The position numbers and the translations under genes are program-made. Below are positions 9,216-13,378 of a DNA stretch of 64,000 nucleotides, piece after piece (position 1 is the first letter of the stretch; every line of letters begins with the position of its first letter). The notes under the pieces are model-generated. The model was given only the letters and a program-made list of their open reading frames with translations. It made no database searches and had not been told where the DNA came from. The stretch is from Burkholderiaceae bacterium (GTDB taxonomy: Bacteria; Pseudomonadota; Gammaproteobacteria; Burkholderiales; Burkholderiaceae_F). The stretch spans positions 1 through 64,000 of the forward strand of contig JAFTYR010000075.1 of NCBI GenBank assembly GCA_017461315.1, given 5' to 3'.

Positions 9216-11051
9216 TTATCGACGATATCGACTCATATCTAACAAGGCATCTTTAAGATGAGGAGGCATCGATTGGTTTGGTGACTGTTTAAGCTGTTTG
9301 TCCAGATATTCTAGTGCTCCCATTTTATTGATGAGTACTACACGATCATTTTCAACAATCGCTTTATCACTATATCCAGTAGCGATAAACCAATCTCTTC
9401 TGTTTTTTGTTGACCACAAAGAGTGTCCAATCGAATAATCGGAGACGGGATTGTGGCAATTAAAAACTTCAGGAAGGAAGGTTGCTGTAATGTCATAGTG
9501 ATTCGTCATGTATTGAATTTTTGCTTTCGCTTTTCCAGGCCAATGAATAATCAGAGGAACCTTGATCTGTACATCCGTATAGTTTCCTCCATGTCCCCAG
9601 TAATTAAGGCCGTGATCGTTAAATTCTTCACCGTGGTCAGAACTAATAACTACAATGGTGGAATCCATTAGATTTTGCGATTCAATATATTGAAGGATTC
9701 TAGCAATTTGCTCATCCGCATAATGAACGGCATTTTTATATCGATTGAAATAGGGGGCAGGATCAAACTTGCTGTTGAGTTCAATATGATTAATTTCTTT
9801 CCAGTAAGGTTGATAGAAGGTATGTTTTTGATCTTCCGGGAAAGCATAACCGTGAACATTATCTAAAAAGATAAAGCTAAAAAATGGATTTTCAGTTTTG
9901 TTATCTTTTTTTTGATGCCAGGAAATAAAATCATCAATAGCGTGGCGGTCCCTCTCAAGAATAGTATCTCCGGGAGAGTTGAGCCTTAAATTTTGGACAC
10001 TAGAGAAAATTGTTTGATGAAATTCAGGCCGAGTTAAAGGCGCACCAGCAAAGACGCCGATGTTGTAGTTCGATTTTTGTAATGCAGTTACAAATGCAGA
10101 TGGTACTTTGTCAGCTAATGCACTAAACCAATAGGTACTTGGAATCCCATAAAATGTAGAAAAAAGACTATCTCGAGTATGGTTACCTACTGCATAATGG
10201 TTTTTGAAAACAATATTCTTTTCAGCAAAATTCCATACATTCGGAGCATTTTCTTTTGTTACGACGTCAGATCTTAAAGCATCGACGAAAATAAACACGA
10301 TATTAAGATCCTTAACTCTTGTTCCACAATTTAAATCGTTTAAAGGATATTTAAAATTTCCAACCTTGTTATCTATTGATAAATTTGAACTTTGAATATC
10401 GCTCTCTTTGATAATCCCTGTTTTGATGAAAAATGAATTCATCTTCAAAGGACGAATAAGAGGGAGTTTTTCCTTAATCACTAGTACATTAGTCCAGTTG
10501 ATCGGATAGGCGTAAGCGTATAAAACATTAGCTCCAATAAATAAAACAGAAATTAGAAATACTAAGAAGTAAGTCGTTTTAATCAGTTTTTGAGATATGA
10601 GGCGTGCTAGGGAAAAACTTAAGATGCTCCAAACTAGTATTGCTAAGCAAATGACGACAATTTGAATGAGCATCGATTGGGAAAATTGAACTACTTCACC
10701 CCCCCCCAATAAAGTCATCTCAAGCATCGCTAGATTAATGTGCAAACGATACTGTTGATAGACAAAGGTATCAGCCAGAATAAAAACAGTTAGAAGTGAA
10801 CTAAAAGTAATTGTCAAAAAAGTCGCTATTTTTGCTAGATTAAAACGTCCTAAAGGGTAGGCAGTTAATAGTGCAACAATTAAGTTTAAGAAAAAGAAAT
10901 TACTTAAACCGAATACGCAAAAGTAAAAAAGTTGCCAAAAATCCCATGAATCATGCTCAGTTAAATATCGACCTGATATACAGACGATTGTAATCGCTAT
11001 AAAAATAGCGTTCCAAATATAAAGACGAAAAGGTAGTTTGGTGGATTTCAT
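9216..11051 (-). CDS. PbgA/YejM-like inner-membrane sulfatase-fold protein with G9 tract
   Basis: 611 residues: five N-terminal membrane helices (to about residue 190), a linker, and a periplasmic alkaline-phosphatase/sulfatase-fold domain. Similarity to enterobacterial YejM (PbgA/LapC, which senses LPS and controls LpxC) includes SGRYL, a YRLHIN joint, YPLNDL and TFYGIPSTYW. Unlike YejM, the metal-site motifs look complete: Asp in FVDALRSD, Thr292 in NHTRDSLF, Asp472-His473 in SSDHGEEF and His in WGHGG. It could therefore be a phosphoethanolamine/phosphoglycerol-type transferase rather than a pure sensor. Codons 115-118 contain nine consecutive G (C9 at 10699-10707 on the plus strand), currently in frame. 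A one-base change either way stops translation almost immediately. Confidence 0.85.
   Translation of the reverse strand: MKSTKLPFRLYIWNAIFIAITIVCISGRYLTEHDSWDFWQLFYFCVFGLSNFFFLNLIVALLTAYPLGRFNLAKIATFLTITFSSLLTVFILADTFVYQQYRLHINLAMLEMTLLGGGEVVQFSQSMLIQIVVICLAILVWSILSFSLARLISQKLIKTTYFLVFLISVLFIGANVLYAYAYPINWTNVLVIKEKLPLIRPLKMNSFFIKTGIIKESDIQSSNLSIDNKVGNFKYPLNDLNCGTRVKDLNIVFIFVDALRSDVVTKENAPNVWNFAEKNIVFKNHYAVGNHTRDSLFSTFYGIPSTYWFSALADKVPSAFVTALQKSNYNIGVFAGAPLTRPEFHQTIFSSVQNLRLNSPGDTILERDRHAIDDFISWHQKKDNKTENPFFSFIFLDNVHGYAFPEDQKHTFYQPYWKEINHIELNSKFDPAPYFNRYKNAVHYADEQIARILQYIESQNLMDSTIVVISSDHGEEFNDHGLNYWGHGGNYTDVQIKVPLIIHWPGKAKAKIQYMTNHYDITATFLPEVFNCHNPVSDYSIGHSLWSTKNRRDWFIATGYSDKAIVENDRVVLINKMGALEYLDKQLKQSPNQSMPPHLKDALLDMSRYRR
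10699..10707. repeat. C9/G9 homopolymer inside the PbgA-like coding sequence
   Basis: Nine C on the plus strand, read as TTG GGG GGG GGT in the gene. It is the longest G:C run in the window and sits in AT-rich DNA. With ten G the next codon is TGA; with eight G, TAG follows two codons later. Confidence 0.9.
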
Positions 11052-11396: not shown

Positions 11397-13378
11397 TTAA
11401 TTTATTTCTTTAAGAATGGGTTTAATTGCATCCCAGGCTTTTTCTGAAACAACCGATGCACCTAAGTCGGTTAAGTGATTTGTATCAGTGAAAAGAGGTT
11501 CACCTTTTTTACTAAGCATGAAACACTCATTTTCATCACACAAGGCACTACCGGACTCAACGACAAATACCTGATTAGGATAAATCTTTGCCCACTTTGT
11601 AAAGTAGTTCTTCTGAGCCATGATTTGGTCGTTATACTCACTTCGAGGAATTGTGCAACTTCCTTTGATTATATTGACGGGGCGTAATCCCATACAATTT
11701 TCCATTTCATTGGGCATCTGAGGATTATCGATAAGGAAAACTACCTTTTTGCCGGAGTTCATTAAATTTTTCACGGTCTGATGGAAGATATTATCAAATG
11801 TATCCGTAGAACCGTCTTTGAGTAATAGTCGTTCATCCGGTGTGAGATTTTTCCAGGTATTCGAAATAACAATTACTTTTGCCAGGGATGCTTTAGCAGC
11901 CTTCAATACATTGTGAATTTTTGCGTCACGCATTTTTTGTTTTTTCGAAAAACCACGAACTACATTTTCAAGTGGACGGGTACCACCAGCAGCGTAGATA
12001 TCAACACGTACAGAATCGGGAGCAAACTGGGGAAATACATTCATCATATGCTCTGTGTGAGAATTACCGATCAGCAAAACATCACCGTCTTCTTTTCCTG
12101 TTTGAGACCAGCAAACAAAGTCGTATGAATTTTTGCAACGATGATGTTGAGGAACTTTACGATCGTTTGTAATAGTAACTAATGCTTTTTGTTGCTCTGC
12201 ATTTAATCGTTGACTAAAACCATCTTTAAGCGAAACAAGTCCACTAATAGCTCCAACAAAAAATAGTGTACCTAGTGTGCTAAAAAGCATCTTCTTGTTG
12301 GCTTTCATGCGACGAATAGGAACTTCAATGAAAGTAAAAGAAATATAGGCAAATACAATAGAAAGCAGTACTAATGCACAGGTTACAAGGAAAGGAACCT
12401 TACCGGCGTATAAAGAAAAGCCAATCGATAAGAAAAGCCAGTGCCAAAGGTAAATAGGATAACTTAACCATCCTAAAAATACTGTCTTTGGATGTGTAAG
12501 AAGGGTACGATTGACGATAGCGTTTCTTCCAGCCCCGATCAGTAAAATCGAGCAAATTGTGGGAATGGTAGCCCAATATCCGGGATATTGATTTGTGACT
12601 GAATCAAAGGTAAAAAGGCAAATCAATAAAGTCGAAAGGGCGATGACTGAGAGCCAATCTCCATTACGTTCCAAAATAGTTTTAATTTTTTCATAGAAAC
12701 AATTTTTGTTAGACCGAAAATGGACATAGGCTAATAAAACTCCAGCTCCTAATTGCCAGAAACGGCAATGGGGCCAGAAATAAGCCTTAGATTCATCTAG
12801 TGGTTGGTAATGAAGTTCTGTAGCAAAAGATGCCACTAAAAGAGCGACCAATAACCAGCCAACCTGTCCTTTCAATAGTTTCCATGTTCCCCAAAGAAGC
12901 AAAGGAAAAACTAGGTAGAACTGTTCTTCAACACCTAAAGACCAAAGGTGCATAAATGGTCTTCTGGCAATTTCTAATCCAAAGTAATCAATGCCTCGAG
13001 CCAAACGGATATTTTCAACAAAAATGGAACCGTATAAAGCTTCGGCACCAAGTTCTTTAAACTCTCGAGGAGTGAGGAGTAGGGTACCTAGAATCAAACC
13101 GACGACAATAACAAAGATCAATGCAGGGAAAATACGACGGGAACGTTTTGCATAAAAGTCCCAGAAACTGAATGTGCCTTTGTTAATACCTCGGAAAAGA
13201 ATAGCCGATATCAAGTAACCAGAAATTGCGAAAAAGATATCAACACCGATATAACCTCCTCCAAAGATGGAAGGAAAGGCGTGGCAAAGAACGACGAGCG
13301 AAACAGCAACAGCTCGAAGACCATCAATGTCAGGTCGATAATAAGGTGATGATGTATAGGTTAGAGGGGGGGAGACAT
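11397..13378 (-). pseudogene. OafA-type acyltransferase (AT3 + SGNH), frame-shifted at a C7 tract; probably phase-variable, OFF as read
   Basis: The open frame from 13214 (605 codons, TTG) lacks the start of the acyltransferase-3 domain. The missing part is encoded upstream in the same frame: YRPDIDGLRA, then VVLCHAFPSIFGGGY with the catalytic-type His, then GVDIFFAISGYL. That frame has no ATG, GTG or TTG of its own. The only nearby ATG (complement of 13376-13378) reads MSPPL and stops at TAA because of a C7 run (13366-13372). One extra C gives MSPPPLTYTSSPYYRPDIDG and a 660-residue protein. The rest has about ten membrane helices and a C-terminal SGNH domain (GNSHTEH; DTNHLTD), the architecture of O-antigen/LPS O-acetyltransferases. 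Alternatively the shift is a homopolymer base-calling error. No strong ribosome site precedes the ATG. Confidence 0.85.
13366..13372. repeat. G7/C7 homopolymer at the 5' end of the acyltransferase
   Basis: Seven G on the plus strand (C on the coding strand), two codons after the putative ATG. The downstream acyltransferase frame needs eight C, or five, to be joined to that ATG. Confidence 0.9.

Follow-up and report, generated by a model that had tools for sequence, protein, structure and literature searches.

Does a run of nine G residues within a YejM/PbgA-like gene act as a slippage switch, and what would such a switch control? The gene lies in a 64-kb stretch of DNA (hereafter the window) that belongs to the metagenome-assembled genome (MAG) of an uncultured Parasutterella-like gut bacterium (1.55 Mb, 85% complete, 81 contigs). 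The features concerned, with their coordinates in the window, are the following.

9216..11051, minus strand: gene for a YejM/PbgA-like inner-membrane protein of 611 aa with an ATG start (PF11893, PF00884, NF038282, alignment to 5i5h/6xlp, hydropathy)
10699..10707, minus strand: G9 homopolymer (C9 on the plus strand), in frame at codons 115-118 of the YejM-like gene; proposed slippage tract, assembled ON
11397..13374, minus strand: gene for an AT3-SGNH acyltransferase, OafA-like (PF01757 and PF19040), directly upstream of the YejM-like gene and co-directional with it
13366..13372, minus strand: C7 tract (G7 on the plus strand), directly after the ATG of the acyltransferase gene; the first of the switches named in the original prediction

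An in-frame G9 tract in a YejM-like gene

On the minus strand, the codons around the tract read TTA TTG GGG GGG GGT GAA GTA, in agreement with the in-frame G9 originally described for codons 115-118. The tract is the sole G/C run of at least 8 in the window and the runner-up is the G7 at 13366-13372. Hence, the longest G:C runs do fall in two adjacent envelope genes, as had been proposed, and the distance between them, given as 2.6 kb, measures 2.66 kb. Addition of one G to the tract yields a protein of 118 aa and removal of one G a protein of 119 aa, as opposed to 611 aa at full length. The tract lies 19% into the gene, away from its start, a position that counts against a switch. Hydropathy analysis places it between hydrophobic segments 3 and 4 of the protein, so that the off-frame forms lose the whole periplasmic domain. 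The stops that immediately close both off-frames had been put forward as the layout of a switch. These stops are real but only mildly unusual: both off-frames are closed within 2 codons at 2.3% of the coding positions of the window and within 3 codons at 4.9%. Because the layout occurs at 2-5% of coding positions, we give it little weight as evidence for switching.

Other lines of evidence carry the argument. The genome-wide census of tracts, the genes that accompany them, the OFF frame of the adjacent acyltransferase gene and the G9/G10 habit of the whole clade (see below) all agree with a slippage switch. We thus read the G9 of the YejM-like gene as a simple-sequence (poly-G) contingency locus, whose length would change, with a probability of roughly 0.78. 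The tract presents several features of such loci: an in-frame run of at least 8, truncation in the off-frames, over-representation, and a location in a gene for an inner-membrane enzyme with a periplasmic domain. The original prediction of a slippage switch in a protein of LPS control or lipid modification is well supported, if indirectly, as concerns the switch; the part invoking LPS control of the LapC type is not (see below).

Long G tracts across the genome

G/C runs were counted by pattern search over the whole 1.55-Mb genome. Runs of 7 were found five times and runs of 9 four times, whereas no run of 8 and none above 9 turned up. Synonymous shuffling of 118 of the genome's own genes (126 kb of coding DNA) led us to expect 5.1 runs of 6, 1.0 of 7, 0.22 of 8 and 0.04 of 9 or more, while the numbers observed in the same genes are 1, 0, 0 and 1, respectively. 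When scaled to the genome, about 0.43 coding runs of at least 9 are expected versus 3 seen (P ~0.01). If the fall-off with length is instead extrapolated, roughly, from the five G7 runs, about 0.13 are expected versus 4 seen (P ~1e-5). Since runs of 6-8 are fewer than shuffling expects, the genome selects against incidental runs of medium length, and yet it retains its G9s. The three G9 tracts found outside the window are the following.

Contig C67 (L040:9145-11341): G9 at the start of an MmeI-type IIL restriction-modification gene, out of frame with the ATG (PF20473/PF20464)
Contig C29 (L039:1-357, at the contig end): G9 in the signal region of an ESPR autotransporter gene, in frame (PF13018)
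Contig C29: G9 about 220 bp upstream of the ATG of the ESPR autotransporter gene (pattern search)

The positions of these three tracts are textbook for phase variation. With two G9s, the autotransporter gene is a possible double switch, translational and at the promoter. The upstream C29 tract and the MmeI tract have a common sequence context, GCG9CGAG. As for the remaining G7 runs (on contigs C32, C33, C59 and C62), inspection by eye placed two outside clear genes, one in a gene for an FNR/CRP-like regulator and one in a DnaK/HscA-like gene. These locations do not look switch-like; we rejected the four runs as candidates and took them to set the background.

The frame of the MmeI-type gene is broken a second time, near a T7 and ahead of the target-recognition domain. 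As the gene might be decaying or mis-assembled, this locus was given less weight. The break also bears on whether tract lengths, or the frame breaks near them, could be artefacts of assembly or sequencing, a concern heightened by the fact that the genome is a MAG and that homopolymers are error-prone. However, the YejM-like gene, read with G9, is open over all 611 aa, and the G9/G10 habit is also found in the isolate genomes of P. excrementihominis YIT 11859, T. muris YL45 and P. muris. We therefore regard an artefact as very improbable.

Conservation at the tract site

Homologues of the YejM-like gene were retrieved from genome contigs; all are from other species and at most 47% identical. 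Their comparison showed that the family characteristically has three consecutive glycines at the tract site (LGGGQIV, LGGGRIV, LAGGKVV, NGGSEVI and similar), with G-G-S, A-G-G and G-R-G as variants. Part of the tract must thus reflect amino-acid constraint. Conceivably, the protein requires Leu-Gly-Gly-Gly and the GGG GGG GGT codons arose by drift, in which case the tract would be incidental, and either sufficiently stable or a burden that is tolerated. Besides the conserved glycines, this explanation can draw on copy 1 of P. excrementihominis, where the site reads GGC GGG GGG and is already a G6, and on the shuffling estimate of about 0.43 coding runs of at least 9 per genome. No run longer than G6 was found at this site among the homologues examined, whose glycine codons are mostly GGT, GGA and GGC. 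In the present genome, GGG accounts for 9.4% of Gly codons, and two GGG codons in a row following a G-ending Leu codon have a probability of about 0.0024. Glycines are constrained and codons are not, which makes the tract a property of this lineage; given the mixed codons of the homologues and the rarity of GGG, amino-acid conservation alone leaves GGG GGG unexplained. The same point bears on the finding that the original prediction had named as speaking against itself, namely a tract missing from relatives that conserve the glycines. This finding applies only by half: the glycines are kept and the homologues examined are tract-free, but their codon choice is mixed. Drift is further at odds with the shortage of mid-length runs (7:5 and 8:0 genome-wide), and with the uniform length of 9 in all four long runs, the other three of which lie at switch-type genes. 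On balance, a chance origin seems improbable and the contingency locus remains our preferred reading. No second copy of the tract locus was detected in viral contigs, either by protein scan or with a DNA pattern spanning the tract.

The likely product of the YejM-like gene

Pfam analysis of the 611-aa protein identified a DUF3413 domain (PF11893, 72 bits) and a sulfatase domain (PF00884, 112 bits), both above cut-offs. Hydropathy peaks of the N-terminal membrane domain fit five transmembrane segments; a periplasmic domain of the alkaline-phosphatase superfamily follows. The YejM protein of E. coli and Salmonella (also PbgA, LapC) likewise combines a DUF3413 membrane domain with a sulfatase-fold domain. 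Its structures, 5i5h and 6xlp, are the best solved relatives, with similarity from end to end (E 3.5e-51 to 5i5h). The score with the NCBIfam model for LapC/YejM/PbgA (NF038282) is 245.6 bits, far below the cut-off of 825.

The alignment singled out D257, T292, D472, H473 and H487 as likely active-site residues. D257, T292 and H487 align with D268, T302 and H468 of E. coli YejM, while the position of R451 is taken by H473, preceded by D472. Thus, where E. coli YejM has G-R, the window protein has the canonical D-H metal site, absent from the E. coli protein, whose counterpart in LtaS is D475-H476. Owing to this likeness to LtaS, the window protein looks closer to the active transferases and phosphatases of the superfamily than E. 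coli YejM does. Given the metal site, the low NF038282 score and the accessory status of the gene (see below), the enzyme encoded is most likely one of the alkaline-phosphatase superfamily that acts in the envelope, either transferring or removing phospho-groups. It would alter an envelope glycolipid or phosphate group, presumably with lipid modification as the outcome.

The yejM gene is essential in E. coli, whereas the window gene is accessory: a DUF3413 gene is present in 11 of 67 genomes of the family and in 9 of the 39 high-quality ones. This distribution argues against essentiality within the clade. Moreover, the YejM homologue of one genome (G015) is interrupted by a TnpB-type insertion. 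With an accessory gene, and one homologue disrupted in this way, the OFF state should be tolerated. A G10 run is found just upstream of the interrupted homologue (G015:C20, L047:4200-6840).

The original prediction had viewed the protein as being of the LPS-control or lipid-modification type. If it were a regulator of the LapC type, switching would shift the turnover of LpxC by LapB/FtsH and hence the amount of LPS. Both the full-length similarity to YejM/PbgA/LapC and the presence in the genome of a LapB-like ring protein (402 aa) are compatible with this role. However, a LapB-type ring is found in 41 of 41 relatives searched (the profile also matches RadA, and the count supports presence only loosely) versus DUF3413 in only 11 of 67 genomes. 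In Salmonella, the membrane domain of PbgA is reported to be essential (PMC6921655), so that switching such a gene OFF would kill the cell. On the basis of this distribution, the low NF038282 score and the LtaS-like metal site, we set the LapC role aside as the main reading; it is unlikely that the protein controls the amount of LPS in the manner of LapC, slightly more so than that the tract arose by drift.

The adjacent acyltransferase gene

The conserved, family-typical N-terminal motif of the acyltransferase, YRPDIDGLRA, is encoded in a frame different from that of the only nearby ATG, which precedes the C7 tract. We conclude that the acyltransferase gene was assembled OFF. P. excrementihominis carries the same AT3-YejM pair, in the same order and on one strand; there, the acyltransferase gene has a G9 in its middle portion and is also out of frame. 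In a MAG of Oxalobacter, a C10 splits an AT3-SGNH gene about 6 kb from a YejM homologue. A phase-variable O-acetyltransferase, as we propose the neighbour to be, is encoded by oafA of nontypeable Haemophilus influenzae (NTHi), where the repeat is a GCAA tetranucleotide instead of a homopolymer (PMC6479036).

A model for switching and its precedents

In the mechanism we propose, the polymerase would slip on the G9 during replication (slipped-strand mispairing), with the gain or loss of one G. Nine G residues, or other lengths that keep the frame, would correspond to ON and the remaining frames to OFF. The OFF protein would be cut at about residue 118 of 611, just before the fourth membrane helix, and lack the periplasmic enzyme domain. 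As the YejM-like and acyltransferase genes each have a tract of their own, up to four envelope states could result. The species is represented by one assembly, and consensus assemblies hide minority tract lengths.

PptA of Neisseria meningitidis is probably a member of the alkaline-phosphatase superfamily, like the window protein. The pptA gene provides the closest precedent, as it specifies an envelope phospho-form transferase and has an intragenic poly-G tract with single-base ON/OFF steps (PMC3656113). The tract is within the coding sequence and encodes poly-Gly; pptA is ON with 8G and OFF with 7, 9 or 10, and about 1 in 100 colonies switch, while an 11G allele, in frame and with one extra glycine, is inactive (PMC3656113). 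By analogy with the latter, a strictly conserved tri-Gly could leave a single length of the window tract fully active. The two systems differ in that PptA modifies pilin and lacks the DUF3413 domain, in the ON length (8G versus 9G), and in that switching was measured for pptA and is deduced here.

The second precedent comes from an unrelated phylum. C. jejuni has many G tracts per genome, mainly G9/G10 and in surface genes, which are held at these lengths by a bias for insertion at G8 and for deletion at G11 (PMC8355987). Tract lengths in the relatives of the window genome are similar; the window genome has only 4 tracts and the relatives 11-19.

Tracts in Parasutterella and Turicimonas relatives

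Runs of G9 or longer are present in 56 of the 67 family genomes. In the five closest genomes with a YejM homologue (P. muris, Turicimonas muris YL45, P. excrementihominis YIT 11859, one Turicimonas MAG and one Parasutterella MAG), pattern search identified 11-19 tracts each, the P. muris count including a few at contig ends that resemble assembly debris (L216, L222). The loci fetched from these relatives contain 59 tracts of length 9, 13 of length 10, one of length 13 and five of length 8, the latter class being small in part because the search demanded at least 9. Pfam analysis of 47 tract-bearing frames returned acyltransferases, glycosyltransferases, a UDP-sugar dehydrogenase, a porin, a subtilase, several DNA methylases and phage tail proteins of the Gp10 type. 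The nearest parallels to the window gene are two genes for other envelope transferases of the sulfatase superfamily, both with a G9 tract: a CptA/EptA-like gene in Turicimonas, which is OFF, and an LtaS-like gene directly downstream of a YejM homologue in Parasutterella, which is ON.

The wealth of G9/G10 tracts in their methylase, glycan and surface genes suggests that Parasutterella and Turicimonas, both common commensals of the gut, rely on slippage to vary their surface, in the manner of Campylobacter and Neisseria. We are inclined, by a narrow margin, towards the broader proposal that the two adjacent envelope enzymes, each with its own poly-G/C switch, would generate four surface states as part of an undescribed, clade-wide contingency system of Parasutterella-like gut bacteria. 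Such a system would extend to DNA methylases, autotransporters and phage tail-type genes. Switches of the poly-G type are already known; the novelty lies in the YejM gene family and in what is apparently an undescribed clade-wide system. An open-access search found no literature linking YejM with phase variation and no relevant phase-variation reports for Parasutterella or Sutterella. If the tract switches, an envelope gene of the YejM family joins the phase-variable genes, which is impossible where yejM is essential, and the family would have a different, dispensable job outside the enterobacteria. Cultured Parasutterella and Turicimonas, as well as the deep metagenomes already available, would allow a direct test of clade-wide switching.

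Several loci of the relatives deserve mention on their own. A 2.4-kb segment of P. muris (G032:C135:43431-45781, L223) contains six G/C tracts of 9-10, mostly in consecutive short genes. Four of the genes match Gp10_C (phage baseplate/tail type), and in-frame and out-of-frame versions are mixed; the segment has the appearance of tail-type genes in tandem, each switchable on its own. Similar arrays of genes for short, uncharacterised proteins are present in P. excrementihominis (G005:C22:71242-73558, L206) and T. muris (G025:C11:127492-129024, L241), where each protein has its own G9 and a short tail, and in-frame and out-of-frame copies adjoin; the one protein scanned gave no Pfam match. Finally, two Turicimonas loci (L250 and L258) contain genes for DNA methylases of the N6/N4 and C5 types. 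Both have G9/G10 tracts and are out of frame, which makes them candidate phasevarion regulators in a gut commensal.
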